From Acidimicrobiales bacterium (GTDB lineage: Bacteria; Actinomycetota; Acidimicrobiia; Acidimicrobiales; DATDAH01), in assembly GCA_016794585.1 (NCBI GenBank), contig JAEUJM010000005.1, positions 1 through 64,000 on the forward strand: 64,000 nt of DNA, given 5' to 3'. Below the pieces are notes generated by a model. It saw nothing but the letters and a program-made list of their open reading frames with translations, searched no databases and had not been told where the DNA came from. Below, in pieces: positions 5,918 through 50,965 of this stretch. How positions within the stretch are numbered: position 1 is the stretch's first letter; each line of letters opens with the position of its first letter. The position numbers and the translations under genes were made by a program.

Positions 5918-5925
5918 CGCCAAAA

Positions 5926-10618: not shown

Positions 10619-11929
10619 TCAGATGCTGTCGACGCCCATGAAGAACAGCACGACCACGATCAGGAGCAGGGCGAGCAGGCCCCAGATCAGGCCGAGCGCC
10701 TGCGAGAGCCCGGACCCCGCCGTGGCCAGCGCGGCCACCACCAACGACCCCGACACCGGCACCCAGCGATGTGGCGGTCGCGGCTCGCGCTCCTGCTGCC
10801 AGACCCGCACCACGGCGGCGACCACGACCAGCACCCCGATCACGAGCACGATGGGCAGGAAGTCGGCGTTCCAGGCGAACACCCCACCGGCGACGGCCAC
10901 GACCCCACCCACGATCCACCGCGTGGCGAGATCGGGGACGAGGTGGGGCTCGCCGGACGGCGTGGGCTCGGACGGGGGCCCGGTCGGGACCGCGACGGTC
11001 GGGGCGTCGGGGGGCCCGACCGCGGTGCCCGCCTCGTCCGACGGGGGTGCGGGGGGTGCGGGCGTCGCGGCCCCCGGCGGCGCCTGCACCCAGGTGCGCT
11101 CGAGCACCTGGGTCAGCGCCGCGTCGGCGGGGACCCCGAGCCGGGTGGCGAGCGCCTCGGCCGTCGGGCGCCGTCCCGGATCGGGGTCGAGGGCCTGCAC
11201 GACCAGGGCCCGCAACCAGTCCGGGACCCCGTCGAGGTCGAGCTCGCCGCGGGCAGCCCGCACCTGGATCACCTCGGGCCGACTCCCGGACACGGGCGGG
11301 CGGCCGGTGGCGGCGAAGACCAGCACCGCTCCCCACGCCCAGACGTCACTGGCCGCGGTGTGGCGGTCGTCGCCGAGCTGCTCGGGGGCCATCCACGCCG
11401 GCGTCCCGAGCACCATGCCGGTGCGGGTCAGCGTCGTGGTGTCGTCGAACCAGGCGATGCCGAAGTCGACCACCCGGGGCCCGTCGGGGCCGAGCAGCAC
11501 GTTGGACGGCGTGAGGTCGCGGTGGACGACGCCGGCGGCGTGGATGTCCGCAAGGGCCCGGGCGAGCCCGGCGGCGAGCGCGTGCAGGTCCACCCCGCTC
11601 CGAGCGTCCCGGAGGGTCGGCCCCTGCACGTACTCGGTGGCGATCCAGGGCTGGGGGGCCTGGAGGTTGGCGTCGAGCACCCGGGCCACCGACCGGCCGT
11701 GCACCCGGCGCACGGCATCGAGCTCACGGGCGAAGCGGCGACGGAACCCTTCGTCGGCCTGGAGCTCTGGGCGCAGCACCTTGACGGCGACCTCGGCGAC
11801 CGAGGCGCCGGGGCGCTCGTCCACGCCGAGGTACACCTCGCCCATGCCGCCGCTACCGAGCGGACGGAGCACCCGGTACGGGCCGATGCGGGCGGGGCCC
11901 GCCGCCTCCACTCCCCCGCGCTCCCCCAT
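10619..11929 (-). CDS. Membrane-anchored serine/threonine protein kinase (PknB-like)
   Basis: 436 residues. The kinase domain is complete: glycine loop LGSGGMGEVYLG (24-35), Lys50 in VAVK, HRDLTPSN with Asp138, DFG at 155-157 and APE near 181. After residue 275 comes a Pro/Ala/Thr-rich linker of about 70 residues, then three or four hydrophobic segments (about 345-435) ending FFMGVDSI. There is no PASTA or other extracellular sensor, so it may sense through the membrane part or a partner. It is separate from the steroid operon next door by more than 120 bases. Its substrate is unknown. Confidence 0.88.
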   Translation of the reverse strand: MGERGGVEAAGPARIGPYRVLRPLGSGGMGEVYLGVDERPGASVAEVAVKVLRPELQADEGFRRRFARELDAVRRVHGRSVARVLDANLQAPQPWIATEYVQGPTLRDARSGVDLHALAAGLARALADIHAAGVVHRDLTPSNVLLGPDGPRVVDFGIAWFDDTTTLTRTGMVLGTPAWMAPEQLGDDRHTAASDVWAWGAVLVFAATGRPPVSGSRPEVIQVRAARGELDLDGVPDWLRALVVQALDPDPGRRPTAEALATRLGVPADAALTQVLERTWVQAPPGAATPAPPAPPSDEAGTAVGPPDAPTVAVPTGPPSEPTPSGEPHLVPDLATRWIVGGVVAVAGGVFAWNADFLPIVLVIGVLVVVAAVVRVWQQEREPRPPHRWVPVSGSLVVAALATAGSGLSQALGLIWGLLALLLIVVVLFFMGVDSI

Positions 11930-11990
11930 GACCCCATCGTCGCAGGTATTCGGTGGTGGGCGGCGGCCCCGGCGGACGAAACTGCCCGCC

Positions 11991-12617
11991 ATGACTGCTG
12001 CGTTCACCACCGGGTTCGGCCTCGGCTTCCTCGTCGCCGCCCAGGTGGGGCCGGTGTGGCTCCTGTGCGCCCGCTCGGTCCTGAGGAGGCGCGTGGCCAC
12101 CGGCCTGGCCATCGGTGCCGCCGCTGCTCTGGTCGACACCGCCTACGCCGCCCTCGGCATCGCCGGCGCCGCCAGCCTCCTCGAGATCGCCGGCCTGCGC
12201 ATCGGCCTCGGCCTCGTGGGCGCGGCCTTCCTCGTCTATCTCGGCAGCCGCACCGTCTGGCAGGGCCTCCGGGCGCGGACCGGCATGGAGACCCTCGAGG
12301 AGGTGGCCGACCCCCGCAAGGCCTTCCTCACCGGCCTCGCCGCCACCGCCGCCAACCCCTCCACCATCATCTCCTGGGCCGCCATCTTCACCGCCGCCCA
12401 CACCGCCGACGTGGCCACGTCCGCCCCCAGCGCCGGCGCCATGCTCCTCGCCATCGGCCTCGGCTCGTTCTCGTGGTTCCTGATCCTGTCGCTGGCGTCC
12501 GGTGCCCTCGGCGCCCGGCTGGGCGAGCGGGTCCAGCGCCCCGTCGACGTCCTGTCCGGCCTCGCCCTCGCCGGCTTCGGCGCCTACCTCGGCTGGTCCA
12601 CCCTCCGCGACGCCTGA
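11991..12617 (+). CDS. LysE/RhtB-family exporter
   Basis: 208 residues with about six hydrophobic helices. The N-terminal FTTGFGLGFLVAAQVGPVWL matches the first helix of LysE-type amino-acid/metabolite exporters, which have a G-x-x-x-GP motif here. AATAANPSTIISW in the middle is the conserved N-P helix of the family. It starts 61 bases from the divergent kinase gene. Substrate cannot be predicted. Confidence 0.85.
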   Translation: MTAAFTTGFGLGFLVAAQVGPVWLLCARSVLRRRVATGLAIGAAAALVDTAYAALGIAGAASLLEIAGLRIGLGLVGAAFLVYLGSRTVWQGLRARTGMETLEEVADPRKAFLTGLAATAANPSTIISWAAIFTAAHTADVATSAPSAGAMLLAIGLGSFSWFLILSLASGALGARLGERVQRPVDVLSGLALAGFGAYLGWSTLRDA

Positions 12618-12657
12618 ACCCGTTCCCGCAGGCTCCTCTCCGGCGATCCGTCAGGCG
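12611..12657. terminator. Inverted repeat around two convergent stop codons
   Basis: CGCCTGA (12611-12617) pairs with TCAGGCG (12651-12657), seven perfect base pairs. The arms hold the TGA of the LysE gene and the TGA of the convergent protease gene. The 33-base loop contains no clear second stem. Confidence 0.4.
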
Positions 12658-13832
12658 GGGCCGTGGTCGGGCAGGGGCTCGGGTGGGCCGAAGCGGGTGG
12701 CCTCGTCGTAGCGGCCGGCTCGCAACAGCAGTTGGCGCAGGGCCTGACGGCCACGCGGCGCGGCCTCGGCACGCGAAGCGATGAGGCGGTCGACCACGTC
12801 GTCGAGCAGACCCTCGCCGGCGAGGCGGCGCACGTAGGCCGGCGGCGGGAGCAGGCAGTCCTCGGCCACCCAGTCGTCGACGGTGAGGTTGATGCGGTCG
12901 GCACGGCTGACCATCTGCGGGTCGGCGAGGACGCACTGGAGGTGACCGCTGGCCTCACGCTGGTCGGGCATGCGCCCGAGGGCCCGACGAGCGTCGTCAT
13001 CCTCGCCGCGGGCGACGTGGGCCCACGCCCCGACCTCGACCGCGACGGCTCGCAGGTCCAGCGCCTTGGCCTGAGGCAGGGCGTCGTTCACGAGGGCGAG
13101 TGCGGTGTCGGGGTCGTCCTGCGAGAGCGCGGCGTAGGCACGGCGGACCTCGTCGCCCACCCGGGCCGCGCGTCGATCGGCCAGCGCTCGCCAGTTGGTG
13201 GCCAGGAAGAACACCGCGAACATGCCGGCGAAGAGCATCCCGCTGCGCAGGGCGAAGAGCCCGGCGGCGCCGGCCACCACGATCGACACGACTCGGGCGG
13301 GCACCTCGCCCTGGTCGCCGGTCAGGAAGTCGAGCACCTCCTTGGTGACGTTGCCGCCGTCGAGCGGGAGGATGGGCAGCAGGTTCACGAGCGACCAGGC
13401 CACGTTCACCCACACCACCGAGAGCAGCACCAGCTCGACCTCGAAGGACGGGCGCTCGAGGGTGCGCGACAGCCACACCGCGGGCACCCCGAGCAGGAAC
13501 AGTCCTGAGAGCGGGCCGGCCAGGTCGACCCCGATGCGCTTCGCCCGGGAGTGGATGGCGCCGGCCGGGATGGTGAGTCCACCCAGGCCGTGCAGGACGA
13601 TCCGTGAGGAGACGCCCGAAAGACGCATGGCCACGGCGTGGCCGAGCTCGTGGACGAGGACGGACACGAACACCACGACGATCCAGATGGCCACGCCCTT
13701 CACGGTGCCGAGGCTGGCCCCCAGGAGCGCCGCCACGAGGAAGAACCCGAGCTCGATGCGCACCGGCACGTCGCCCAGGCGCAGGTGCAGGGCCCAGCCC
13801 TCCGAGTGCTCCGCCGGCGCGGTGGTGGCCAC
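12651..13832 (-). CDS. Site-2-protease-family zinc metalloprotease with helical C-terminal domain
   Basis: 393 residues from GTG 13832. The membrane zinc site is HELGH (61-65) in the second hydrophobic helix, with LPILPLDGG near residue 155 giving the third ligand. About five transmembrane helices are followed by a soluble, TPR-like Ala/Leu/Arg-rich helical domain from about 225. It is of the M50B type without a CBS or PDZ domain. Such proteases cleave membrane anti-sigma factors or similar proteins; no anti-sigma gene is nearby. The KstR-type box at 13858 is 26 bases before its start. Confidence 0.87.
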   Translation of the reverse strand: MATTAPAEHSEGWALHLRLGDVPVRIELGFFLVAALLGASLGTVKGVAIWIVVVFVSVLVHELGHAVAMRLSGVSSRIVLHGLGGLTIPAGAIHSRAKRIGVDLAGPLSGLFLLGVPAVWLSRTLERPSFEVELVLLSVVWVNVAWSLVNLLPILPLDGGNVTKEVLDFLTGDQGEVPARVVSIVVAGAAGLFALRSGMLFAGMFAVFFLATNWRALADRRAARVGDEVRRAYAALSQDDPDTALALVNDALPQAKALDLRAVAVEVGAWAHVARGEDDDARRALGRMPDQREASGHLQCVLADPQMVSRADRINLTVDDWVAEDCLLPPPAYVRRLAGEGLLDDVVDRLIASRAEAAPRGRQALRQLLLRAGRYDEATRFGPPEPLPDHGPA

Positions 13833-13857
13833 CCTCCCGAGGCTATTGACCGGAGTC

Positions 13858-13871
13858 GAGAACGGGTTCTA
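13858..13871. promoter_or_regulatory. KstR-type operator (7 of 8 fixed bases)
   Basis: GAGAACGGGTTCTA has AAC-N2-GTT and the final A of the KstR box and misses only the first T. It lies between divergent genes: 26 bases from the protease start and 91 bases before the LLM start at 13963. Confidence 0.66.
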
Positions 13872-13889
13872 GTTTGGCGGTCGATATTG

Positions 13890-13919
13890 CAACCGCTTGT
13901 TTGCTATCGCGAACGGTTG
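13890..13919. promoter_or_regulatory. Nested palindrome, possible IclR-family operator
   Basis: Inner repeat GTTTGC-TATC-GCGAAC (13899-13914, one mismatch between arms) is framed by CAACC and GGTTG (13890-13894 and 13915-13919). IclR-type regulators often bind 15-16-base palindromes of the GTTCGC/GCGAAC kind, and an IclR gene is third in the operon that starts 44 bases downstream. Assignment is by position and shape only. Confidence 0.45.
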
Positions 13920-13962
13920 TGCATCCGACGAACCCGCACCGCGACCCACCGAGGGGATCCTG

Positions 13963-15132
13963 ATGAAGCTGGACATGCTGTACGAGATCGACTGCCCGAA
14001 GCCCTGGGACGCCGGGCCGCACCCCTACGGCCAGCGGGCCGCGGAGCAGAAGTCGTACCGAGAGGCCATCGAGCAGATCAAGCTGGCCGACACCCTCGGC
14101 TACAACACCGTGTGGGTGGTCGAGCACCACTTCCGCGAGGGCCGTTCGCACTGCCCCGCCTCCGAGGTCCTGCTCGGCGGCCTGGCCACGGTGACCGAGA
14201 ACATCAAGATGGGCTTCGGCGTCACCCTGACCCCCTTCGGCTTCATCAACCCCGCCCGCATCGCCGAGAAGGTCGCCACCGTCGACATCCTCTCCAACGG
14301 TCGCGTCGAGTGGGGCACGGGTCGCTCCACCCCCATGGAGCAGACCGCGTTCCACGTCGACCGCGAGCAGAGCCGCTCGGACTGGAAGGAAGCCATCGAG
14401 ATCGTCACCGGCATGTGGCGTGACGAGTACTTCGAGTACGAGAGCGAGCGCTTCTCGTTCCCCAAGCGCATGGTCACCCCCAAGCCCGTCCAGGACCCGC
14501 ACCCGCCGGTCTGGATGGCCGCCACCTCCGCCGAGTCCGCCGCCGTCGCCGGCTCACTCGGCCTGGGCCTCTTGTCGTTCACGATCATGCAGCCCATCGA
14601 GCTCATGGCCAAGGCCATCGAGAACTACCGCACCGCCCAGGTGAACAACAACCCGCTCACCAAGGTCGTCAACAACCGGGTCGCCGCGTACACGCTGGTG
14701 CACTGCGAAGACGAGGCCAACTTCGAGAAGAACAAGGTCTGGGAGTCGGTCGCCTGGTGGTACCAGAACCTCGCCCAGTTCACCATCGACTGGGAGTTCC
14801 CCCTCACCCCGCAGGAGGAGGTGGACCGCATCTTCCCGCTGATGAAGCCGCTGAAGGAGGGGCACGTCCCCGTCGAGGCGTTCGACAAGGGCGACATGAT
14901 CGTCATCGGTGACGCCGAGAAGTGCTTCGAGAAGATGCGCCACTACGCCGACCTCGGCTGCGACTCGCTGATCTGCTACTCGCAGTTCGGCTACCTGCCG
15001 CACGAGTCGATCATGGAGACCATCGAGACCATCGGGAAGGAAGTCCTCCCCGAGATCGAGGCCTACGTGCCGCCGGACGACTCTCCCGCGGCCAAGTTCA
15101 AGGCCATTTCCGAGGGCCGGGTCGAGAGCTGA
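13963..15132 (+). CDS. LLM-class flavin-dependent oxidoreductase
   Basis: 389 residues, longer than the F420-type LLM proteins of the window. MKLDMLYEIDCPKPW, VVEHHFREGRSHCPASEVLL and NGRVEWGTGRSTPMEQTAF mark the luciferase-like family; its relatives include alkanal and dioxane-type monooxygenases as well as F420 enzymes. ATG 13963 is chosen because GAGGGG stands seven bases before it. First gene of an LLM-SGNH-IclR-SnoaL operon controlled by a KstR-type box and perhaps an IclR site. Reaction unknown. Confidence 0.83.
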   Translation: MKLDMLYEIDCPKPWDAGPHPYGQRAAEQKSYREAIEQIKLADTLGYNTVWVVEHHFREGRSHCPASEVLLGGLATVTENIKMGFGVTLTPFGFINPARIAEKVATVDILSNGRVEWGTGRSTPMEQTAFHVDREQSRSDWKEAIEIVTGMWRDEYFEYESERFSFPKRMVTPKPVQDPHPPVWMAATSAESAAVAGSLGLGLLSFTIMQPIELMAKAIENYRTAQVNNNPLTKVVNNRVAAYTLVHCEDEANFEKNKVWESVAWWYQNLAQFTIDWEFPLTPQEEVDRIFPLMKPLKEGHVPVEAFDKGDMIVIGDAEKCFEKMRHYADLGCDSLICYSQFGYLPHESIMETIETIGKEVLPEIEAYVPPDDSPAAKFKAISEGRVES

Positions 15133-26794: not shown

Positions 26795-28393
26795 TCACGG
26801 ATGTGCTTGGGCTGCCCGTTCGCGCAGCTCGAATTTCAGGACCTTGCCGCTGGCGTTGAGCGGCAGCTCGTCCACCACCTCGACGAACTTGGGCACCTTG
26901 TAGTTGGCCATGTTGGCCCGTGCCCACTCGATGACCCCGGTGGGGTCGAGGTCGGCGCCGGCGCGGGGGATCACGTAGGCCAGCACCACCTCACCGAAGC
27001 GCTCGTCGGGCACCCCCACCACCGCGGCCTGGGCGATGCCGCCGTGGCCGAGGAGCAGGTTCTCCACCTCGGCGGGATAGATGTTCTCGCCGCCGCGGAT
27101 GATCATGTCCTTCTTGCGGTCGGTGATGTCGAGGTAGCCGCGGTCGTCCATCACCCCGATGTCGCCGGTGTGCAGCCAGCCGTCGGCGTCGATGGCCTCG
27201 GCGGTCTGCTCGGGGTCCTCGAAGTAGCCGAGCATGACGTTGTAGCCCCGCACCACGACCTCGCCGGGCTCGCCGCGGGGCACCTCGCTGCCGGCGTCGT
27301 CGACCACCTGCACCTCGACGTCGGGGATGGCCCGGCCCGAGGTGTTGGCGATGGTCTCGGGGTCGTCCTCGGGGCGGCAGATCGTCGCGGTGCCGGTGCA
27401 CTCGGTGAGCCCGTACGCGGTGAGGATGGTCCGGAACGTCAGCTCGGTGCGCATGCGCTTGATCATCTCGACCGGGACCGCGGCGGCGCCGGTGACGGCG
27501 AGGCGCAGGCTGGACAGGTCGTACCGGTCGCGGTCGGGGTGCTCGAGGATGGCCATGTAGAGCGTGGGGGCGCCGGGGAGCATCGAGATGCGCTCCTTCT
27601 CGACGTTGCGCAGCACCTCGTCGACGTCGAACACGGCCTGGGGGACGATGGTGGCCCCCCGCATGAGCGCGGCCATCCAGCCCGCCTTGTAGCCGAAGGT
27701 GTGGAAGAAGGGCATGACCACGAGGTAGCGGTCGCCCTCGGCGAGGCCCACGAACGACGACCACGTCTCGAACACCCGCAGCGTCTGCGCGTGCGTGACC
27801 ATCACACCCTTGGGGCGGCCGGTGGTGCCCGAGGTGAAGATGATGTCGGAGAGGTCGTCCGGTCGGACCGCGGCGGTGCGGGCCGAGGCCTCGGCCGGGT
27901 CGATCGAGCCACCGGCCTCGAGGTAGTGCTCCCAGGTCTCGGTGCCCTCTGGGGCGTCCCCACGGAGCACGACGATCTTGTCCAGGGCGGGCAGGGCCGC
28001 GCCGGCGCCGCGCAGCATGGCCACGTAGTCGGTGCCGAGGAAGCCGTTGACGGTGAAGAGCACCTTGGCGCCCGACTTCTCGAGCACGTAGGCGGCCTCG
28101 CCGCCCTTGAAGCGGGTGTTGACGGGCACCAGCACCCCGCCGGCGCCCAACAGGCCGAGGGCGGCGACGATCCACTCCCAGACGTTCGGGGCCCAGATGG
28201 CGACCCGGTCACCGGGCTCGATGCCGGCGGCGATGGCGGCCCGGGTCGAGTGCTCGACCCGCTCGGCGAGCTGGGCGTACGAGAGGCGCAGGTCGCCGTC
28301 GACCAGGGCCTCGGCGTCACCGAAGCGTGCGACCCCACTGGGCACCAGCCCCGGGATCGTGCCCCACGTCTGCCACCCCTCGTCGCTGCTCAT
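26795..28393 (-). CDS. fadD3: Acyl-CoA synthetase, FadD3-like
   Basis: 532 residues. The ATP-binding P-loop SDIIFTSGTTGRPKG is at about 182-196; the stretches FFHTFGYKAGWMAALMRGAT, LPGAPTLYMAILEHPDRDRY, LTAYGLTECTG and the catalytic Lys in NASGKVLKFELRE follow. Internal motifs are those of FadD3, which activates HIP, the two-ring propionate left after A/B-ring removal. ATG 28393 is preferred to GTG 28402. Transcribed with an alcohol dehydrogenase, an SDR and an LLM oxidoreductase; a CTGACG-type operator lies 21 bases upstream. Substrate is by family resemblance. Confidence 0.85.
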   Translation of the reverse strand: MSSDEGWQTWGTIPGLVPSGVARFGDAEALVDGDLRLSYAQLAERVEHSTRAAIAAGIEPGDRVAIWAPNVWEWIVAALGLLGAGGVLVPVNTRFKGGEAAYVLEKSGAKVLFTVNGFLGTDYVAMLRGAGAALPALDKIVVLRGDAPEGTETWEHYLEAGGSIDPAEASARTAAVRPDDLSDIIFTSGTTGRPKGVMVTHAQTLRVFETWSSFVGLAEGDRYLVVMPFFHTFGYKAGWMAALMRGATIVPQAVFDVDEVLRNVEKERISMLPGAPTLYMAILEHPDRDRYDLSSLRLAVTGAAAVPVEMIKRMRTELTFRTILTAYGLTECTGTATICRPEDDPETIANTSGRAIPDVEVQVVDDAGSEVPRGEPGEVVVRGYNVMLGYFEDPEQTAEAIDADGWLHTGDIGVMDDRGYLDITDRKKDMIIRGGENIYPAEVENLLLGHGGIAQAAVVGVPDERFGEVVLAYVIPRAGADLDPTGVIEWARANMANYKVPKFVEVVDELPLNASGKVLKFELRERAAQAHP

Positions 28394-28413
28394 GTCCCCC
28401 ACTCCACCGGAAT

Positions 28414-41056: not shown

Positions 41057-42097
41057 CTAGAGAACGGCGGCGGCGACCCGGCGACGGTGCCAGGCGGCGT
41101 CGCCCCACTGGCCGGCGAGCGCCCACGCCCGCTTCATCCAGAGGTGGAGGTCGTACTCGAACGTGTAGCCGATGGCGCCGTGCACCTGGAGCGACGTCCT
41201 CGCGGCGAACGCGGCCGCCTCGGCGGCGTAGGACTTCGCCATCGACACGTGGGTGGCCCGCTCTCGGGCGTCGACCGCACCGCCGCGGCCGGCGACCGTC
41301 CAGGCCGCCCGATAGACCATCGGACGGGCGAACTCGAGGCGCAGCTTGGTGTCGGCAAGGTGGTGCTTCACGGCCTGGAACCCGCCGATGGGCTGGCCGA
41401 ACTGCTCGCGGGCGGTGGCGTACTCGACGGTGACGTCGAGCAGCTGCTGGGTGACCCCGAGCAGCATCGCCGACACGCCGAGGACCCCACGGTCGAAGGC
41501 GGCGGCGAGGGCGACGGCGGCTTCGTGCCCCGAGGCCAGGAGGGTGTCGGGCGTCGGCGACCACTCGACGCGGGCGATGCGCCGGGCGCGGTCGACCGAG
41601 CGCTGAGAGGCCACGGCGGCGTCGGCCCACGGCACCGCGTGCAGCTCACCGTCGCGCTCGAGCAGCAGCAGCTCGGCGGTGGCGCCCTCGGAGACGTAGA
41701 CGTCCCGCTCGAAGCCGACCGTGACCACGCCGTCGCCGGCGGCGATCTTGGGCAGCCACTCGGACGCGGCGGCCCCGCCATTGCCCGCGCTGAGATCGGC
41801 CAGGAGCGGGGCGGCGACGGCGACCGTCTCGACGAGGGGCTCGGGCAGGCAGAACCGCCCGGCCTCCTCCAGGAGCAGCACGAGGTCGAGCTCGTCCATG
41901 CCGAGGCCGCCGAAGGCCTCTGGCGTGGTCAGGCCCAGCACCCCCATGTCGGCGAGCTGCGCCCAGCGGGACTCCGAGCGGCCGGGGCCGTCCGACTCCC
42001 ATGCGTCACGCACTGCGTCCGGCGGGCACTCCTTGTCGAGCAGGTCGCGGACGGCCTCCTGGAACAGGCGCTGGTCCGCAGAGAACGAGAAGTCCAT
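41057..42097 (-). CDS. Acyl-CoA dehydrogenase, partner-type (FadE32-like position)
   Basis: 346 residues. MDFSFSADQRLFQEAVRDLL at the start, GQPIGGFQAVKHHLADTKLRLE and SLQVHGAIGYTFEYDLHLWM at the end. The central TEPxxGSD motif is missing (GFERDVYVSEGATA stands there), as in partner subunits of heteromeric dehydrogenases. It is ten bases behind the FadE31-like gene; in mycobacteria FadE31, FadE32 and FadE33 cooperate in the ring-C/D pathway. The FadE32 label is by position only. Confidence 0.84.
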   Translation of the reverse strand: MDFSFSADQRLFQEAVRDLLDKECPPDAVRDAWESDGPGRSESRWAQLADMGVLGLTTPEAFGGLGMDELDLVLLLEEAGRFCLPEPLVETVAVAAPLLADLSAGNGGAAASEWLPKIAAGDGVVTVGFERDVYVSEGATAELLLLERDGELHAVPWADAAVASQRSVDRARRIARVEWSPTPDTLLASGHEAAVALAAAFDRGVLGVSAMLLGVTQQLLDVTVEYATAREQFGQPIGGFQAVKHHLADTKLRLEFARPMVYRAAWTVAGRGGAVDARERATHVSMAKSYAAEAAAFAARTSLQVHGAIGYTFEYDLHLWMKRAWALAGQWGDAAWHRRRVAAAVL

Positions 42098-42107
42098 CAG
42101 ACGGCCC

Positions 42108-43292
42108 TCACTTGACCCTCGGGAGGCCGAGCACCCGCTCGGCGACGACGTTGCGCTGGATCTCGTTGGTGCCGGCATAGATGGGCCCGGCAAGCGAGAA
42201 GAGGAAGCCGTCCATCCAGCGGCCGTGGTCGACCGCCTCGTCGGCGTCGATGTCGAGCTCGGCGAGCTGGCCCAGCAGGGCGAGAGCGGTTTCGTGCAGG
42301 CGCACGTCCAGCTCGCTCCAGAAGATCTTGTTGAGGCTGGCCTCGGGCCCCATCGTGCCGCCGCCCATCAGGGCGGTGACGGCCTGGAAGGTGTAGAGCC
42401 GGTAGGCGTCGGCGTCCATCCAGCAGCGGACGACGTCGTCGGCCAGGCGGGGGTCGAGCGACAGCGGCCCGCCCCCGACCTCGCCGGACACGCAGCGGCG
42501 GTACAGGTCGAGCAGGCGGTCGGCGGTGGCCATGAAGCGGCCCGGGCTGCGCAGGGAGAGGCCCCGCTCGGATGAGGCGGTGGCCATGGCCACGGCCCAG
42601 CCCTGGTTGACGCCTCCGAGCACGTCGCGCTCGTGCACCCGCACGTCCTCGAAGAACACCTCGGCGAAGGCCTCGTCGTCGTGGAGGCCACCGACGGAGC
42701 GGACGGTCACGCCTTCGGCGTCGAGCGGCACCAGGAAGTACGTGAGGCCCCGGTGGCGGGTGGCCTCCGGGTCGGTGCGGAAGAGGCCGAACAGGTAGTC
42801 GCAGAACACCGCCCGGGTGGACCACGTCTTCTGGCCGTTGAGCACCCAGTGGTCGCCGTCCTGGCGGGCGCGGCTGGTGAGGCCGGCGAGGTCGCTGCCG
42901 GCGTTGGGCTCGCTCCAGCCCTGGGCCCAGGTCTTGGCGCCCGACGCCATGTCGCGCAGGTACCGATCCCGCTGGTCCTGGGTGCCGTGCTCGAACAGCG
43001 TCGGCGCGAGCAGGAAGATGCCGTTCTGGGTGACCCGTCCCGGGGCGCCCGACCGGTAGTACTCCTCCTCGAAGATCAGCCACTCCATGAGGTCGGCCTC
43101 GCGCCCGCCGTACTCCTCGGGCCAGGACACGACGGCCCAGCGGGCGTCGAACAGCTTGCGCTCCCACTCGAGGTGCTGCCGGTAGCCCTCGGCGGTGTTC
43201 ATGGAGGCGAGGCCCGACGGCACGTTGGCCTCGAGCCACACCCGGGCCTCGGCCCGGAACGCCTCGTGCTGCGGCGAGAAGGTCAGGTCCAC
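42108..43292 (-). CDS. fadE31: Acyl-CoA dehydrogenase, FadE31-like
   Basis: 394 residues from GTG 43292. MDLTFSPQHEAFRAEARVWL, WPEEYGGREADLMEWLIFEE, WAQGWSEPNAGSDLAGL and GPIYAGTNEIQRNVVAERVL agree with FadE31 of the KstR2 regulon, including the phrase SSERGLSLRSPGRF, which FadE31 also has in similar form. FadE31 acts late in HIP breakdown after ring opening. The CTGACG-type operator is 12 bases upstream. Confidence 0.86.
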   Translation of the reverse strand: MDLTFSPQHEAFRAEARVWLEANVPSGLASMNTAEGYRQHLEWERKLFDARWAVVSWPEEYGGREADLMEWLIFEEEYYRSGAPGRVTQNGIFLLAPTLFEHGTQDQRDRYLRDMASGAKTWAQGWSEPNAGSDLAGLTSRARQDGDHWVLNGQKTWSTRAVFCDYLFGLFRTDPEATRHRGLTYFLVPLDAEGVTVRSVGGLHDDEAFAEVFFEDVRVHERDVLGGVNQGWAVAMATASSERGLSLRSPGRFMATADRLLDLYRRCVSGEVGGGPLSLDPRLADDVVRCWMDADAYRLYTFQAVTALMGGGTMGPEASLNKIFWSELDVRLHETALALLGQLAELDIDADEAVDHGRWMDGFLFSLAGPIYAGTNEIQRNVVAERVLGLPRVK

Positions 43293-43436: not shown

Positions 43437-43862
43437 GTGAATCGCCTGCCGGCCATCGAGGGCTGGTTCACCATGGACGCCGACCAGCCCCACCTGCTCG
43501 GGTCGAAGTGCACCGCCTGCGGCACCTACGCCTTCCCCGCCGCCTCGCACTTCTGCGGCAACCCGGCCTGCGCCGGCACCGAGTTCGACACCGTCGAGCT
43601 CAGCCGCACCGGCACGGTCTGGTCCTTCACGGACAACCGCTACCAGCCGCCCGAGCCCTACATCTCGCCCGACCCCTTCGAGCCCTACGTGATCGCCGCG
43701 GTGCAGCTCGCCGAGGAGGGCCTCGTGATCCTGGGCCAGCTGACCGCCGGCTCGACCACCGCCGACGTGGCCGTCGGCGACCAGGTCGAGCTGGTGCTCG
43801 AGCCCCTGTACGAGGACGACGAGGCCGAGCACCTCGTCTGGAAGTGGAAGGTGGTCCGATGA
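43437..43862 (+). CDS. DUF35/OB-fold protein, partner of the thiolase-like gene
   Basis: 141 residues. A zinc knuckle with C25, C28, C40 and C45 leads into an OB fold (TGTVWSFTDNRYQPPEPYIS, LTAGSTTADVAVGDQVEL). DUF35 proteins bind thiolase-like proteins and position acyl-CoA; with Ltp2 they form a steroid aldolase. The stop overlaps the ATG of the thiolase-like gene (ATGA), so a 1:1 complex is likely. Start GTG 43437; ATG 43473 would remove only the N-terminal helix. Confidence 0.83.
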   Translation: MNRLPAIEGWFTMDADQPHLLGSKCTACGTYAFPAASHFCGNPACAGTEFDTVELSRTGTVWSFTDNRYQPPEPYISPDPFEPYVIAAVQLAEEGLVILGQLTAGSTTADVAVGDQVELVLEPLYEDDEAEHLVWKWKVVR

Positions 43863-45046
43863 GCAACGAGATCGCGATCCTGGGTGCGGGCATGCACCCG
43901 TGGGGCAAGTGGGGGCGCAACTTCGTCGAGTACGGCATCGCCGCCGCCAACGACGCCCTCGCCGACGCCGGCCTGCAGTGGTCCGACATCCAGTACGTCT
44001 CCGGCGCCGACACGATGCGCAACGGCTACCCCGGCTACGTCGCGGGCGCGACCTTCGCCCAGGCCCTGGGCTGGACGGGCGCCCGGGTGTCGAGCTGCTA
44101 CGCCGCCTGCGCGTCCGGCGCCACGGCCCTCAACATCGCCCGGGCCCAGATCCTCGCCGGCCTGTGCGACGTCGCCCTCGTGGTCGGCGCCGACACCACC
44201 CCCAAGGGCTTCCTCGCCCCGAACAAGGGCGAGCGCCAGGACGACCCCGACTGGCTGCGCTTCCGCCTCATCGGCGCCACCAACCCGACCTACTTCGCCC
44301 TCTACGCCCGCCGGCGCATGGCGCTGTACGGCGCCACCCAGGAGGACTTCGCCAAGGTCAAGGTGAAGAACGCCCGCCACGGCCTGGCCAACCCCTACGC
44401 CCGCTTCCGCAAGGAGGTCAGTGTGGAGGACGTGCTGGAGTCCCCGGTCGTGGCCGACCCACTCCACCTGCTCGACATCTGTGCCACCAGTGACGGCGGC
44501 GCCGCCCTGGTGGTGTCGAGCCTGGACTTCGCCCGCAAGCACGCCAGCAGCTTCGTGAAGGTGGCGGCGGTCTCGACGGTCACGCCGACGTATCCGAACA
44601 CCGTGATCGAGATGCCCAACTTCGCCACCGACTCGTCCGCGGTGGCGGCCGAGCCGGCGCTGCCGTTCCGCGACGCCATCGCCGCCGCCGCCTACGAGGA
44701 GGCCGGCATCGGCCCCGAGGACGTCAACGTGGTCGAGGCCTACGACCTGTCGTCGGCCCTCGAGCTCGACTGGTACGAGAACATCGGGCTCTGCAAGGAG
44801 GGTGAGGCCGAGCGCCTCCTCAACGACGGCGACACCTCGTTGGGCGGCCGCGTGCCGGTCAACCCGAGCGGCGGCCTGGCCTGCTTCGGCGAGGCCGTTC
44901 CCGCCCAGGCCATCGCCCAGGTCTGCGAGCTGACGTGGCAGCTCCGGGGCCAGGCCACCGGCCGCCAGGTCGAGGGCGCCACGGTCGGCGTCACCGTCAA
45001 CCAGGGCCTGTTCGGCCACGGCTCGTCCGTGATCGTCACCCGCTAG
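43859..45046 (+). CDS. Thiolase-like protein (Ltp/SCP2-thiolase type), possible aldolase
   Basis: 395 residues of thiolase fold. SSCYAACASGATALNIA holds the nucleophile Cys84. The usual GHPxGATG histidine segment is changed: after NPSGGLACFG comes EAVPAQA, so the His of the thiolase site is absent; a late GHGSS carries another His. DUF35-dependent Ltp proteins are retro-aldolases that release propionyl-CoA or similar from steroid side chains. The gene pair resembles the DUF35/Ltp3/Ltp4 locus of mycobacteria. Thiolysis is less likely than aldol cleavage; inference. Confidence 0.82.
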   Translation: MSNEIAILGAGMHPWGKWGRNFVEYGIAAANDALADAGLQWSDIQYVSGADTMRNGYPGYVAGATFAQALGWTGARVSSCYAACASGATALNIARAQILAGLCDVALVVGADTTPKGFLAPNKGERQDDPDWLRFRLIGATNPTYFALYARRRMALYGATQEDFAKVKVKNARHGLANPYARFRKEVSVEDVLESPVVADPLHLLDICATSDGGAALVVSSLDFARKHASSFVKVAAVSTVTPTYPNTVIEMPNFATDSSAVAAEPALPFRDAIAAAAYEEAGIGPEDVNVVEAYDLSSALELDWYENIGLCKEGEAERLLNDGDTSLGGRVPVNPSGGLACFGEAVPAQAIAQVCELTWQLRGQATGRQVEGATVGVTVNQGLFGHGSSVIVTR

Positions 45047-45064
45047 CCACCCACCCCCACCGAA

Positions 45065-45107
45065 CTCGACGCAATAGCTGTCGGAAAGCGACAGTCATTG
45101 CGTCGAG
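45065..45107. repeat. 43-base perfect-ended palindrome
   Basis: CTCGACGCAAT and CTGTCG pair with CGACAG and ATTGCGTCGAG around GAAAG; only two internal bases (AG/TC) fail to pair. It fills the gap between the thiolase-like and FadA6-like genes on the same strand, so it may be an attenuator, a partial terminator, or a mobile palindromic element of the same size class as the 44-base repeats. Confidence 0.72.
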
Positions 45108-45150
45108 AACGAACGAATCGCACGAGATCCGAGCACCAGGAGCAACTGAC

Positions 45151-46305
45151 ATGGCCGAGGCCTACATCATCGACGCAGTGCGCACCCCCGTTGGCAAGCG
45201 GGGCGGCGGGCTCAGCGAGGCCCACCCCGCCGACCTCGGCGCCCACGTGCTGAACGGCATCTTCGAGCGGGTCGACGTCGACCCCGCCGCCGTGGAGGAC
45301 GTCTACTTCGGCTGCGTCGACGCCATCGGCCCGCAGGCCGGCGACATCGCCCGCACCGCCTGGCTGGCCGCCGGCCTCCCCGAGGAGATCCCCGGCACCA
45401 CCATCGACCGCCAGTGCGGCTCGTCGCAGCAGGCCGTGCACTTCGCCGCCCAGGCAGTGATGAGCGGCACCAACGACCTGATCATGACCGGCGGCGTGCA
45501 GAACATGTCGATGATCCCCATCGCCTCCGCCATGACCGTGGCCGAGCAGTTCGGCTTCACCGACCCGTTCTCCGGCAGCGAGGGCTGGGTCAAGCGCTAC
45601 GGCGACCAGGAGGTCAGCCAGTTCCGCGGCGCCGAGCTCATCGCCGAGAAGTGGGACATCAGCCGTGAGGACATGGAGGCGTTCGCCCTCGAGAGCCACG
45701 AGCGGGCGCTGACGGCCATCGACGAGGGCCGCTTCGAGCGCGAGATCCTGCCCTACGGCGAGATCACCACCGACGAGGGCCCTCGCCGGGGCACCACCCT
45801 CGAGAAGATGGCCGGACTGCGCACGCTGGTCGAGGGCGGGCGCCTCACCGCCGCCGTGTCGAGCCAGATCTCCGACGCCGCCACCGCCATGCTCATCGCC
45901 TCCGAGAAGGCGGTCGAGGAGCACGGCCTGAAGCCCCGGGCCCGCATCCACCACCTCTCGGTGCGGGGCGCCGACCCGATCTTCATGCTGTCGGCGCCGA
46001 TCCCGGCCACGGAGTACGCCCTCGCCAAGGCGGGCATGACCATCGACGACATCGACCTCGTCGAGATCAACGAGGCCTTCGCCTCGGTGGTGCTGGCGTG
46101 GCAGAAGGAGACCGGCGCCGACCTGGCCAAGGTCAACGTCAACGGCGGCGCCATCGCCCTGGGCCACCCCCTCGGCGCCACCGGCGTGCGCCTGATGACC
46201 ACCCTGCTCAACGAGCTCGAGCGCACCGGCGGCCGTTACGGCCTCCAGACCATGTGCGAGGGCGGCGGGCAGGCCAACGTCACCATCATCGAGCGCCTGG
46301 ACTGA
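45151..46305 (+). CDS. fadA6: Acetyl-CoA acyltransferase (thiolase), FadA6-like
   Basis: 384 residues with all catalytic parts: Cys89 in DRQCGSSQQA, GGAIALGHPLGATG with the His, and QTMCEGGGQANV with the second Cys. GGVQNMSMIPIASAMT and QFRGAELIAEKWDIS are close to FadA6, the thiolase that cleaves the ring-opened HIP product in steroid C/D-ring breakdown. AGGAG eight bases before ATG 45151 supports the start. It lies just downstream of the DUF35/thiolase-like pair and upstream of the convergent TetR gene. Confidence 0.88.
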   Translation: MAEAYIIDAVRTPVGKRGGGLSEAHPADLGAHVLNGIFERVDVDPAAVEDVYFGCVDAIGPQAGDIARTAWLAAGLPEEIPGTTIDRQCGSSQQAVHFAAQAVMSGTNDLIMTGGVQNMSMIPIASAMTVAEQFGFTDPFSGSEGWVKRYGDQEVSQFRGAELIAEKWDISREDMEAFALESHERALTAIDEGRFEREILPYGEITTDEGPRRGTTLEKMAGLRTLVEGGRLTAAVSSQISDAATAMLIASEKAVEEHGLKPRARIHHLSVRGADPIFMLSAPIPATEYALAKAGMTIDDIDLVEINEAFASVVLAWQKETGADLAKVNVNGGAIALGHPLGATGVRLMTTLLNELERTGGRYGLQTMCEGGGQANVTIIERLD

Positions 46306-47421: not shown

Positions 47422-47459
47422 GTCGAACGGCGGTCGGGCGGGGGCCGGGTCGGCTCAGG
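47417..47459. terminator. Inverted repeat around two convergent stop codons
   Basis: CCTGAG (47417-47422) pairs with CTCAGG (47454-47459). The arms hold the TGA of the small gene and the TGA of the IpdC-like gene. Confidence 0.38.
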
Positions 47460-48537
47460 GGCAGAGGCGGCCGCGGGCCTGCTCGGCCTCGGCCACGATG
47501 CGCTGCACCAGCTCGTCCACCGTCGGGAGGTCGTCGATCATGCCGACCACCTGACCGCTCGACATCACGCCGAGGTCGGGCCGGCCGTCGACCATCGAGG
47601 CCTTGAGCAACATCGGGGTGTTGGCGGCCATGATCACCTGGCTCCAGCTCAGCTCCTGGGAGCGGTGCATGGCCACGCCCTCACGGATGATCTGACTCCA
47701 CGGGGTGCCCGACAGCTTCTTGAAGCGCAGGGCGTTGCTGACCGCCCGGGGCAGCGACGTGACGGGGCCCGTGCGGTCGAGGGCCTCGGTGAACTCGGTG
47801 CGCAGCACCCGGTGGGGCACGCCGTCGACCTGAGTGGTGCGCAGCGTGTCGTTCACGCCCTTGCCCAGGTACACCTGCTTCACGTCGTCGCCCACAGGTG
47901 AGTCCGACGTGAGCAGGAAGCGGGTACCCATGGCGATGCCGGCGGCGCCGTAGGCCAGTGCCGCCACCAGCCCCCGGCCGTCGAAGTAGCCGCCGGCGGC
48001 GATGACGGGCAGGTCCACCGCGTCGACCACCTGGGGCAGCAGCAGGGAGGTGGGGACGTCGCCGGTGTGGCCACCGCCCTCCCCGCCCTGGACGAGCACG
48101 GCGTCGACGCCCCACTCGGCCACCTTCTCGGCGTGGCGCTTCGCCCCGATGGAGGGCATCACCACCACGCCGGCGTCCTTCAGCTTCTTGATGAGGTCGG
48201 GTTTCGGCGCGAGAGCGAACGATCCGACCTTCACGCCCTCCTTGATGAGCAGGTCGATGCGGTCGCCGGCGTCGGGCGCGTCGGACCGCAGGTTCACGCC
48301 GAAGGGCCGGTCGGTCTGCTCCTTCACCTCACGGATTGCTCCGACCAGCTGGTCGTAGTCCATGGTGGCGGCGGCGAGGATGCCGAGGATGCCGGCGTTG
48401 GCCGAAGCGGCCACGAGGCGCGGCCCGGCCACCCAGCCCATGCCGGTCTGCACGATGGGGTACCGCACCCCCACCAGGTCGCAGAACCGGGTGTGGAAGG
48501 GCGAAGGGGAAACCGGGGAAGCGGAGGCCTCGCTCAC
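47455..48537 (-). CDS. ipdC: Nitronate monooxygenase-family flavoprotein, IpdC-like
   Basis: 360 residues. YPIVQTGMGWVAGPRLVAAS, GGEGGGHTGDVPTSLLLPQV, AAGGYFDGRGL and GIAMGTRFLLTSDS are FMN-barrel features shared with IpdC, a flavin-dependent oxidoreductase of the HIP pathway; the late WSQVIMAANTPMLLKASMVDG is also IpdC-like. GTG 48537 overlaps the IpdB-like stop (GTGA). Last of the EchA20-IpdA-IpdB-IpdC-like operon. Confidence 0.87.
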   Translation of the reverse strand: MSEASASPVSPSPFHTRFCDLVGVRYPIVQTGMGWVAGPRLVAASANAGILGILAAATMDYDQLVGAIREVKEQTDRPFGVNLRSDAPDAGDRIDLLIKEGVKVGSFALAPKPDLIKKLKDAGVVVMPSIGAKRHAEKVAEWGVDAVLVQGGEGGGHTGDVPTSLLLPQVVDAVDLPVIAAGGYFDGRGLVAALAYGAAGIAMGTRFLLTSDSPVGDDVKQVYLGKGVNDTLRTTQVDGVPHRVLRTEFTEALDRTGPVTSLPRAVSNALRFKKLSGTPWSQIIREGVAMHRSQELSWSQVIMAANTPMLLKASMVDGRPDLGVMSSGQVVGMIDDLPTVDELVQRIVAEAEQARGRLCP

Positions 48538-49337
48538 TCGGGCTCCTTGACCTCTTTGGCCAGGAGGCCGTTGGGGTCGATCACCTCGTGGATGAGCTGC
48601 TGCTCCTCCACCGTCGGCGGCCGGGACTCGGGCACGTCGTCGGGGACGACGAGTTCGAAGCCGGTGGCCTCGATCACCTCGTCCACCGTCACGCCAGGGT
48701 GCACGGAGCGCAGTCGCATCGTGTGGTCGGGCGTCTCGAAGTCGAACACGCCGAGGTTGGACACCACCCGGCGGATCTCGTGGAAGCGGGCGGAGTCACC
48801 CGGCAGCGCCGCCGCCCGGTCATAGCCCACGCCCGACACGTAGTCGACCTTCTCGACGAACGAGCGGGTTCCGTGGTTGGGCACCCAGTACGAGCAGGTG
48901 TGGTTGATGGTGTTGCCGGGGGCACCCCGAACGCCGAGCAGCTGCGCCTTGGGCTGGCGCCAGTCGCCGATGCAGGCGATGTTCATGTTGCCGTACCGGT
49001 CGATCTGGCTCGGGCCCATGATGATGTGGCGCCGGCCGGGCCAGACCGCCACGTCGAAGATCGACGCGAAGGGCAGCCATCCCTCGACCAGCTTGTCCTC
49101 GAAGGGCACGGCCACCCCGACGGGCAGGGTGTTGGCCACGAGCAGGGCCTCGGTGTCGGTCATCACAAGGTCGGGCTCGAAGGTGGCCCGGGCCAGGCGG
49201 CCGGCTATCACGGGCACGTTGCCGATGGGGTTGCCGAGGATCTCGCCGTCGCCCCGGAACACGTCGGCCAGGGCGGCCACGCAGACCTCACCCCGGGTGA
49301 AGGTCTCGGCGGGTGCGGAGGTGGTCACGTCGCTCAC
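48534..49337 (-). CDS. ipdB: CoA-transferase-family beta subunit, IpdB-like
   Basis: 267 residues from GTG 49337. EVCVAALADVFRGDGEIL, DTEALLVANTLP, MGPSQIDRYGNMNIACIGDW and VVSNLGVFDF are family I CoA-transferase beta features. In IpdAB the fold has become a hydrolase that opens the last steroid ring (COCHEA-CoA). GTG overlaps the IpdA-like stop by four bases, so the two subunits are made together. Confidence 0.87.
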   Translation of the reverse strand: MSDVTTSAPAETFTRGEVCVAALADVFRGDGEILGNPIGNVPVIAGRLARATFEPDLVMTDTEALLVANTLPVGVAVPFEDKLVEGWLPFASIFDVAVWPGRRHIIMGPSQIDRYGNMNIACIGDWRQPKAQLLGVRGAPGNTINHTCSYWVPNHGTRSFVEKVDYVSGVGYDRAAALPGDSARFHEIRRVVSNLGVFDFETPDHTMRLRSVHPGVTVDEVIEATGFELVVPDDVPESRPPTVEEQQLIHEVIDPNGLLAKEVKEPE

Positions 49338-50188
49338 TGGTCGCGCTCCTTCACGGCTCGCTGGTAGTCCGCCTCGCTCACGTCGAGGTAGCGGGCCTTG
49401 AACTCGAGCCACTTGTCCTCGTCACCCGCGGTGGCCACGTACTCACGCTGGAAGGCCTCGTCGCGCCCGTAGTCGGGGGCGCACAGCGTGAAGTGGGCGC
49501 CGCCAGGGGCCTCGACGACGCCGTCGACCATGAGGCGGTTGAGGCGCAGGCTCTGGATGGGACCCTCCTTCAGGAAGTCCTCGGTCTCGACGATGCGCTC
49601 GCACGACACGTAGCGCTTGTCGGCGGCGAGGCAGAAGTGGTCGTCGTAGAACGGGTCGGGCCCCAGGTACTGGGCGTTTCCGCCCTGGTCGGCCCGGTTC
49701 ATGTGCACGAGGGCGACGTCGAGGTGCAGCGCGGGCATGGCCACGTACTGCTCGGCGTCCTCGTAGGGGGACGTGACCAGCTTCAGGCGGGGATTGGACT
49801 CGAGCAGGTCCGTGCCGAGGCCCACCCGGGTGGGCAGGAACGACACCCGCTGGGCCGCCGCCCGCAGGCCCAGGACGAACATGCCCTCGTCGTACTCCTC
49901 CGCCTCGACCGTGCCGTTCTGGCGGGCGGCCCGGAAATGGGGCTCCAGCGGGATCGAGTCGAGCGACACGAAGCCGTAGACGATCTTGCGCGCCTGGCCG
50001 CTCTTGCAGAGCAGGCCCACGTCGGGGCCGCCGTAGGAGACGATGGTCAGGTCCTTCAGCGACGACCGCAGGATGGCGCGCACGAAGGCCATCGGCTTGC
50101 GCCGCGACCCCCACCCCGCGATCCCGATGGTCATCCCGTCGGACAGCTCGGACACGACCTCGTCGATGGTCATGCGCTTGTCGGGCAT
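49334..50188 (-). CDS. ipdA: CoA-transferase-family alpha subunit, IpdA-like
   Basis: 284 residues. MTIGIAGWGSRRKPMAFVRA (Gly-rich CoA-binding loop), YGGPDVGLLCKSGQARKIVYG, LVHMNRADQGGNAQYLGPDPF and FTLCAPDYGRDEAFQREYV follow the IpdA subunit. With IpdB it hydrolyses the C ring of the ring-D-opened steroid CoA ester. Fifteen bases after the EchA20-like gene. Confidence 0.87.
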   Translation of the reverse strand: MPDKRMTIDEVVSELSDGMTIGIAGWGSRRKPMAFVRAILRSSLKDLTIVSYGGPDVGLLCKSGQARKIVYGFVSLDSIPLEPHFRAARQNGTVEAEEYDEGMFVLGLRAAAQRVSFLPTRVGLGTDLLESNPRLKLVTSPYEDAEQYVAMPALHLDVALVHMNRADQGGNAQYLGPDPFYDDHFCLAADKRYVSCERIVETEDFLKEGPIQSLRLNRLMVDGVVEAPGGAHFTLCAPDYGRDEAFQREYVATAGDEDKWLEFKARYLDVSEADYQRAVKERDQ

Positions 50189-50203: not shown

Positions 50204-50965
50204 CTACTGGTCGAAGTCGGCGTCGCGCTTGTCGACGAACGCCTGGCGGGCCTCGTCGGCCACACCCGAGAGGTTGAGCTCGAACGTGAAGCCCTGCTCG
50301 AAGCGGTAGCTGCGCTTCACGTCGATGGGGTCGATGCCGTTGAGGGACTCCTTGGCCGCCCGGACCACGGTGGGGCTCTTGGCCGCGATGTCGCGGGCCA
50401 CGGCGAAGGCGGCGTCGCGCAGTTCGGCCTGCGGCACCACCTGGAGGACCGAGCCGAAGTGGTGCAGCTCGGCCGCCGTGGCGGTGGCGCTCGTGTAGAC
50501 CATGGCCCGCATCTTGTGCTGGGGCACCAGGCGGGCGAGGTGGGTGGCGGCGCCCAGCGCCCCCCGGTCCACCTCGGGCAGCCCGAAGGTGGCGTCCTCG
50601 GCGGCGATGATGATGTCCGCGTTGCCCACGAGGCCGATGCCGCCGCCGAGGCAGAAGCCGTTCACGGCGGCGATGACGGGCACCGCGCAGTCGTACACGG
50701 CGGCGAACGCGGCATAGCAGCCCCGGTTGGCGCCGATGAGCGCGTCGTAGCCCTCGGTGGCCTGCATCTCCTTGATGTCGACGCCGGCGTTGAAGCCCCG
50801 GCCCTCGGCGCGCAACACGACGGCGCGCACCGCGCGGTCGGCGCTGGCGCGGTCACAGAGCTCGGCGACCTCGAACCACCCGGCGACGGTCAGGGCGTTG
50901 ACCGGTGGGTTGTCCATGACGATCTCGGCGATGCCGAGGTCGTCGACCTGGTAGCTGTTCCCCAC
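50204..50965 (-). CDS. echA20: Enoyl-CoA hydratase/isomerase family, EchA20-like ring hydrolase
   Basis: 253 residues from GTG 50965. FNAGVDIKEMQATEGYDALI, ANRGCYAAFAAVYDCAVPVI, NGFCLGGGIGLVGNADIIIA and GLPEVDRGALGAATHLARLV are nearly those of EchA20, which hydrolyses ring D of the HIEC-CoA intermediate. First gene of the IpdABC-like operon, preceded by the CTGACG-type operator. Same gene order as in mycobacteria. Confidence 0.9.
   Translation of the reverse strand: MGNSYQVDDLGIAEIVMDNPPVNALTVAGWFEVAELCDRASADRAVRAVVLRAEGRGFNAGVDIKEMQATEGYDALIGANRGCYAAFAAVYDCAVPVIAAVNGFCLGGGIGLVGNADIIIAAEDATFGLPEVDRGALGAATHLARLVPQHKMRAMVYTSATATAAELHHFGSVLQVVPQAELRDAAFAVARDIAAKSPTVVRAAKESLNGIDPIDVKRSYRFEQGFTFELNLSGVADEARQAFVDKRDADFDQ

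Follow-up and report, generated by a model that had tools for sequence, protein, structure and literature searches.

A conserved DUF35/thiolase-fold pair of the PRK06059 family as a probable enzyme of steroid ring C/D catabolism and a possible hydratase-free alternative to ScdN

A gene pair of an Acidimicrobiales bacterium encodes a DUF35 protein and a thiolase-fold protein of the PRK06059 family. The pair probably provides a C-C-cleaving enzyme of HIP catabolism that acts at the delta2-MOODA-CoA stage and makes the hydratase ScdN dispensable. In the available text of Crowe et al. (2017; PMC5380842), the fate of delta2-MOODA-CoA is called unclear and the final cuts of the steroid skeleton are only proposed; the route put forward is beta-oxidation of delta2-MOODA-CoA to 2-methyl-beta-ketoadipyl-CoA and then to propionyl-CoA and succinyl-CoA. 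ScdN is described as a hydratase acting after ring C cleavage (PMC13101464, available text), and the Rhodococcus jostii hydratase RHA1_RS22405, tabulated with ScdN, is numbered next to FadE31 (PMC8399759, available text).

The window, the whole stretch of 64,000 nucleotides that was analysed, carries the pair on its forward strand. The DUF35 gene (43437-43862, GTG start) encodes a 141-aa subunit with a zinc ribbon and an OB fold. Its product scores above the cut-offs of Pfam zf-ChsH2 and OB_ChsH2_C, contains four cysteines (Cys25, Cys28, Cys40, and Cys45), and has 6ok1_B, 7pxp_A, and 6esq_E as solved relatives. The gene of the 395-aa thiolase-fold subunit (43859-45046) overlaps it by 4 bp, ATGA, which is in keeping with the translational coupling proposed in an earlier, sequence-only reading. 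A DUF35 match was present in 98 of the 100 loci examined; with gene starts picked by script, the exact 4-bp overlap occurred in 52, and another overlap in 25, of the 98 loci with both genes in order. The thiolase-fold product is a member of NCBIfam PRK06059 (NF004715, 'lipid-transfer protein'; 719.4 bits, cut-off 424). The family record gives no reaction, and no function was found for the family in the openly readable main text of the literature searched. The pair is not peculiar to this lineage, as had been supposed, for at least 576 encoding stretches were found in genome contigs.

In the window's genome, 15 places match the thiolase-fold protein, itself included, and the next best is 38% identical. 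A 38% identical paralogue (L002:1501-2646, forward strand) has a DUF35-like match upstream (34%), an active site that differs again (GCATA, QDTD, and GEPIGASG), and no NCBIfam match at 1e-75 or better. An Ltp2-family paralogue of the same genome (L004:1444-2622, reverse strand) has YDAF where Ltp2 has YDHF. At L064:19459-21094 (forward strand), a second thiolase-like gene and then an apparent DUF35 gene lie about 8 kb from the PRK06059 pair.

The active site of the thiolase-fold subunit was compared residue by residue with those of solved enzymes. Cys84 (codon 44108-44110, forward strand), at the position of the thiolase nucleophile, lies in the motif AACASG. Tyr295 (codon 44741-44743, forward strand) begins the motif YDLS, where thiolases have HD[CA]F, TcLtp2 has YDHF, and CtSal has YDCY. 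GEAVPAQA (residues 344-351, including Glu345; 44888-44911, forward strand) replaces GHPxGATG. The earlier observation that Cys84 is kept while GHPxGATG is replaced holds against the solved thiolases compared, in which Cys is accompanied by HD[CA]F and GHP (GHA in 6esq). The nucleophilic Cys (C[AS]SG-type) of SCP2-type and DUF35-linked thiolases is thus present, and HD[CA]F and the His of GHP are not; the suspicion that this is no ordinary thiolase, and that it has a DUF35 partner, is supported. TcLtp2 has Gly at the Cys84 position with YDHF and GEAY, CtSal has Gly with YDCY and GQ, and the PRK06059 family combines Cys, YDLS, and GEA. The published numbering gives Tyr294 and Tyr344 for TcLtp2 and Tyr302, Gln347, Gln352, and Gly89 for CtSal (PMC12329534, available text); our residue extraction reproduced the two TcLtp2 residues and, when set to Tyr302, the remaining three of CtSal. 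By this comparison, PRK06059 joins a thiolase nucleophile and an aldolase Tyr with the acid of neither side, and its active site matches neither thiolases (no HDCF or GHP) nor the Ltp2/Sal aldolases (no Cys, other acids).

These residues are strictly conserved. In an alignment of 40 orthologues with record titles from several phyla (A2), Cys84, Tyr295-Asp-Leu-Ser, and Gly-Glu345-Ala were invariant; in an alignment of 16 rows (A1), Cys84, Tyr295, Asp296, Leu297, and Glu345 were invariant and Ala stood at 298 in one row. Since Cys84, Tyr295, Asp296, Leu297, and Glu345 are invariant in 40/40 and 16/16 and the DUF35 gene is kept almost throughout (98/100 loci), chance or a local mutation is excluded. 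A degenerate copy was likewise rejected on the invariance in 40/40. The sequence-only reading had not noted that YDLS replaces HDCF, that the family is widely distributed, or that it complements ScdN in the manner described below.

The Ltp2-ChsH2 (DUF35) aldolase (6ok1) resembles the pair in its DUF35 partner, the Tyr of the YD motif, and the loss of GHP, and its Tyr294, the base of the YDHF motif, aligns with Tyr295. However, where Ltp2 has Gly, His296, and the acid Tyr344, the window protein has Cys84, Leu297, and no Tyr in residues 341-350, the exact column of Tyr344 being uncertain. The Sal-Shy (DUF35) aldolase (9myr) shares the DUF35 partner and has Tyr302, but it has Gly for Cys84 and catalytic Cys304 where the window protein has Leu297. 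The suggestion of an Ltp2-family protein was not supported: the score on the PRK07855 model was 149.4 bits against a cut-off of 469, Cys84 stands where Ltp2 and Sal have Gly, and their catalytic acids are absent. Benzoylsuccinyl-CoA thiolase BbsAB (7pxp) also pairs DUF35 with a thiolase fold and has Cys at the nucleophile position, but BbsB has HDAF and GHP instead of YDLS and GEA, and its model (NF053628) gave the window protein 185.5 bits against a cut-off of 750. SCP2-thiolase type 1 (6hsj/6hrv), the best PDB sequence match (229 bits for the profile), keeps HDCF and GHP, whereas the window protein has lost both.

An AlphaFold2 model of the thiolase-fold subunit reached a pLDDT of 81 and a pTM of 0.87, with low-confidence loops at residues 55-59, 115-140, and 245-259. 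The top VIA-align match of the model was BbsB (Z 51.9, rmsd 2.0, 366 residues), followed by a DUF35-linked archaeal thiolase (Z 50.9) and SCP2-thiolase (Z 50.1); the aldolases Ltp2 and Sal scored 44.9 and 42.7. By Foldseek, SCP2-thiolase ranked highest, followed by BbsB. A tree was built from 27 rows; its Ltp4 row is invalid (wrong frame) and its root is to be disregarded. The Ltp2 and Sal rows formed a clade with 4u4e supported 100/100, and PRK06059 fell outside this clade. Orthology to Ltp3 or Ltp4 was considered and rejected: PRK07937 and a PRK08313-type gene together fit the ltp4/ltp3 pair, and PRK06059 is neither. PRK07937 was found in 58 of the 81 genomes of the second family sampled below and adjoins a PRK08313-type gene in L156-L161, among the matches listed (6 of the 20 loci fetched); an adjacent ltp4/ltp3 pair is tabulated in the available text of PMC7807495.

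The genes around the pair are of the HIP type, in agreement with the ring C/D neighbourhood and with the position between FadE31-like and FadA6-like genes recognized earlier, the FadE31-like gene being divergent. On the reverse strand lie a FadE32/IpdE2-like acyl-CoA dehydrogenase gene (41057-42100; best NCBIfam match IpdE2, 150.3 bits, below the cut-off of 450) and the FadE31-like acyl-CoA dehydrogenase gene (42108-43292; labelled from gene order), whose product is 55-64% identical to the best matches in 58 Mycobacteriaceae-type genomes. The FadA6-like thiolase gene follows the pair on the forward strand (45151-46305; PRK07801, 722.5 bits, cut-off 591; FadA6 label by context). Reverse-strand genes for an IpdC-like protein (47455-48537; FabK model 237.5 bits, below the cut-off of 453; its label taken from the gene order of Vibrio pVa1 and Novosphingobium pNL2), for IpdB and IpdA (48534-50188), and for an EchA20-like ring-D hydrolase (50204-50965; PRK07938, 424 bits, cut-off 260; EchA20 label by context) come next. 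IpdA matches plasmid proteins at 48-64%, several of them annotated as CoA-transferase; the IpdB label comes from adjacency and from proteins encoded beside IpdA in other loci, which it matches at 51-66%. The window also holds a FadD3 gene (26795-28402; 766 bits, cut-off 657) and an IpdF-like gene. Between the pair and fadA6, 45047-45150 (104 bases) folds as RNA at -37.6 kcal/mol (z -5.68) and includes a strong, near-perfect hairpin (45065-45107, forward strand; 18 pairs, one mismatch) with no obvious T run, which may be a terminator, an operator, or an attenuator.

Carriage of PRK06059 went with IpdA in 49 of 49 carriers of two genome samples. In the window's order, 23 of 59 genomes carry PRK06059 (including G024, with the gene split over contigs), and all 23 have an IpdA orthologue (E 1e-80 or better), which 25 genomes carry. 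In the second family, that of Rhodococcus sp. JCM 9791 (Mycobacteriaceae-type), 26 of 81 carry PRK06059, again all with IpdA, and 59 are IpdA-positive. IpdA matches 31-39% identical with E above 1e-50 were left out as non-orthologous (G030, G038, G039, G055, and G056, and second matches in G007 and G042). IpdA was also present in all seven named carriers that were examined one by one, of which one belongs to the second sample as well. The five of the 81 genomes with two IpdA matches (G074, G090, G104, G123, and G142) are all PRK06059-positive.

Gene neighbourhoods were compared over 80 named loci, the best 80 of at least 576 encoding stretches. At least one of six core HIP genes (IpdA, IpdB, IpdC, EchA20, FadE31, and FadA6, at 45% identity or more) occurred in the fetched stretch of 39, and at least three in 28; fadE32-DUF35-thiolase-fadA6 stood in a row in 9. 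No core HIP gene was found in the fetched stretches of the 19 Nocardioides- and Actinomadura-type loci, and HIP genes lay beside the pair in 39 of the other 61. In these 61, the neighbour families reaching 13 loci or more were the DUF35 partner and HIP genes, and the next reached 10. For the solitary pair of 20 Mycobacteriaceae-type loci, the DUF35 partner was the only conserved neighbour.

Operon comparison set the pair against ScdN, a name given here by operon position with no identity to the TA441 protein implied. Vibrio alfacsensis pVa1 and Novosphingobium aromaticivorans pNL2 have the order ipdA-ipdB-hydratase-ipdC-echA20-fadE31-fadE32-fadA6, the gene names being assigned in this analysis to annotated products. 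Two MAG loci, L089 (titled Spirochaeta) and L111 (titled Deltaproteobacteria), have the same row except that the hydratase is missing and the DUF35 and thiolase-fold genes follow the second dehydrogenase gene, ahead of fadA6. Proteobacterial operons carry ScdN, whereas otherwise similar ones elsewhere lack it and carry the pair between fadE32 and fadA6. ScdN, crotonase-like and not homologous to the pair, probably belongs to the same pathway stage.

The two genes are distributed in a complementary manner. With the Novosphingobium protein as query (orthologues at 240 bits or more, other crotonases at 222 or less), ScdN only was found in 34 of the 84 IpdA-positive genomes, both genes in 16, PRK06059 only in 33, and neither in 1, so one or the other was present in 83/84. 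The corresponding numbers were 33, 15, 11, and 0 for the 59 of the second family, and 1 (G004), 1 (G011), 22, and 1 (G007, IpdA match partial) for the window's order. 'Both' includes G059, with a partial ScdN (53%, residues 137-294) beside its FadE31, and 'PRK06059 only' includes G079 on weak evidence (no FadE31 match at the limit used). Fisher p was 5.9e-10 for the 84 genomes and 2.8e-5 for the 59, both blind to relatedness. On a FadE31 tree (58 proteins) standing in for the species tree, not all of whose branches are well supported, the minimum number of changes was 7 for ScdN and 8 for PRK06059. An independent-pairs test yielded only 3-4 supported pairs, and none of them ran against the association (sign test p 0.5-1); relatedness may therefore underlie the pattern.

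Loss of ScdN leaves FadE31 and IpdA in place: in the second family, FadE31 remains in 10 of the 11 PRK06059-only genomes, without ScdN beside it, and ScdN lies beside FadE31 in 33/33 PRK06059-negative genomes (among the 58 with a FadE31 match). No ScdN-like gene occurred in the 80 PRK06059 loci (best 80 of at least 576). Fifty named genomes were chosen from these 80, isolates being taken first, other phyla second, and Acidimicrobiia last; IpdA was tested in seven of them, and at least G059 and probably G175, which has the same match coordinates as G037, also belong to the two samples. Eight of the fifty carried ScdN, six intact, one with an internal stop, and one partial. In a plasmid collection (1e-60), 29 of 32 IpdA records also carried ScdN; the others were a small Tsukamurella plasmid, a second Sphingobium herbicidovorans plasmid, and an 11.85-Mb Nonomuraea gerenzanensis record. 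This last has a PRK06059-like match at 68% identity, the sole one in the collection to reach 60% (39% for the runner-up). Many PRK06059-only genomes have crotonases that share 39-50% identity with ScdN and could do the hydration there; such crotonases also occur in IpdA-negative genomes. Tsukamurella tyrosinosolvens plasmid 4 (L208, 86.6 kb) carries at 11162-14674 an enoyl-CoA hydratase family gene and two CoA-transferase genes (ipdAB-like), and a nitronate monooxygenase gene (IpdC-like), beside a steroid 3-ketoacyl-CoA thiolase and a P450.

Operators were searched with consensus sequences that we take to be those of KstR and KstR2. KstR-like sites (up to 2 mismatches) lay upstream of the pair in 9/9 Nocardioides and 11/20 Mycobacteriaceae-type loci; among random windows drawn from these loci, 1.8% and 2.6% contained one. 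Of the Actinomadura-type loci 2/10 had such a site, and of the other loci 3/59. The available text of PMC7807495 and PMC5380842 assigns the HIP genes of Mycobacteriaceae-type bacteria to KstR2, so KstR operators before a solitary pair point to an earlier, perhaps side-chain, step. The sites may reflect such an early-pathway role, or the general steroid repressor may only have taken control of a solitary acquired gene. No KstR-like site lies upstream of the pair in the window. Elsewhere in the window, KstR-like matches (up to 2 mismatches) occur at 4431, 5926, 10532, 13858, and 59597, five against 0.16 expected, and a KstR-like TetR gene lies at 5339-5923 (125.9 bits, below the cut-off of 280). 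A KstR2-type operator before the pair was not adopted: within 2 mismatches, one was found in 2/20 Mycobacteriaceae-type (control 13%), 3/10 Actinomadura-type (10%), and 13/59 other loci (19%), with Nocardioides somewhat high at 5/9 (14.5%). The sole near match to KstR2 in the window, at 29868, is far from the pair. One of the 20 Mycobacteriaceae-type loci (L136) has a perfect KstR2-type palindrome at -38 before the DUF35 gene.

The role outlined above, taken together with the mechanism that we infer for substrate, bond, and residues, is put forward tentatively, at somewhat short of an even chance. The pair would act after FadE31 and FadE32, at the delta2-MOODA-CoA stage. This 5-oxo-2-enoyl-CoA can be regarded as a vinylogous beta-ketoacyl thioester, in which, with a carbanion at C4, conjugation would extend from the C5 ketone via C2=C3 to the thioester. 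Cys84 would attack the C5 ketone and the C4-C5 bond would break, the electrons passing to the C2=C3 bond and on to the thioester, with Tyr295 and Glu345 steering in place of the usual His residues. CoA would then release succinyl-CoA, and 2-pentenoyl-CoA would give acetyl-CoA and propionyl-CoA by ordinary beta-oxidation. Because C4-C5 thiolysis would yield succinyl-CoA and pentenoyl-CoA, the three end products would be the same as those of the ScdN route, and a thiolase-fold enzyme in place of a hydratase makes sense if it needs no hydrated substrate. In our reading, EchA20, whose reaction has been published as a reverse Dieckmann cyclization, opens ring D of HIEC-CoA at a position that is vinylogous in the same way. 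Cys84 and, in the model, the nearest folds (BbsB, the archaeal enzyme, and SCP2-thiolase) lie on the thiolase side. Against this reading, Tyr295 recalls aldolases, not thiolases, and 16 of 84 genomes have both genes. Our literature search found no vinylogous thiolase in print, and to our knowledge none is known.

The new C-C cleavage suggested from sequence remains plausible at this poorly assigned step, and the retro-aldol form of it is possible but not preferred. In that form, which we consider rather unlikely, another hydratase would make 3-hydroxy-MOODA-CoA (or another beta-hydroxyacyl-CoA of the pathway), the pair would cut it with Tyr295 as base, and the cleavage would pull an unfavourable hydration. 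Tyr295 does align with the catalytic bases Tyr294 of TcLtp2 and Tyr302 of CtSal. Ltp2, too, lacks GHP, and its GEAY is similar to GEAV. A DUF35 partner is present, and two acyl-CoA dehydrogenase genes adjoin the pair, as in the igr operon. Yet Cys84 is invariant where both characterised aldolases have Gly, and neither residue 297 nor the stretch 341-350 offers a counterpart of the acids Tyr344 (TcLtp2) and Cys304 (CtSal). The family also lies outside the Ltp2 and Sal clade, these aldolases are lower as folds (Z 44.9 and 42.7 vs 51.9), and among the neighbours of the pair in the 61 loci outside Nocardioides and Actinomadura, EchA20 is the only recurrent hydratase.

Conventional thiolysis of 2-methyl-3-oxoadipyl-CoA, which we hold to be quite unlikely, would accord with the retention of Cys84 and with the nearest solved relatives, BbsB and SCP2-thiolase, which act on alpha-branched substrates. 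But these keep the motifs that the pair has lost (HDAF and GHP in BbsB, HDCF and GHP in SCP2-thiolase), and hydration of delta2-MOODA-CoA would still be required, which leaves the complementarity with ScdN unexplained. Also in its favour, the step concerned is only proposed in the literature (PMC5380842, available text). A sterol side-chain enzyme of the KstR regulon (e.g., for a further C-C cleavage in branched side chains) that sits only incidentally in the HIP operons of some phyla would suit the KstR-like operators of Nocardioides and of some Mycobacteriaceae-type loci. The HIP genes in 39/61 loci and the complementarity with ScdN argue against it, and the ltp3/ltp4 position appears, from gene order in the loci listed, to be held by PRK08313 and PRK07937; we regard it as decidedly unlikely. 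A CoA ester-binding homologue that is catalytically weak or regulatory, suggested by the loss of the usual catalytic His residues, is barely credible given the strictness of Cys84, Tyr295, and Glu345 in 40/40 orthologues of several phyla.

Vinylogous thiolysis remains the mechanism that we prefer. That a Cys84/Tyr295/Glu345 vinylogous thiolase with DUF35 cleaves C4-C5, as a hydratase-free second end to steroid catabolism in several phyla, is possible, but we would not call it probable; if true, it would be a new reaction for the thiolase superfamily. The family name 'lipid-transfer protein' calls for caution, for PRK06059 is probably a catabolic enzyme. A conserved pair that seems to stand in for ScdN is a testable candidate for the last cuts of the steroid skeleton, and the presence of the pair or of ScdN predicts which organisms use which ending. 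A known family, PRK06059, thereby gains a likely pathway position and possibly a new reaction.
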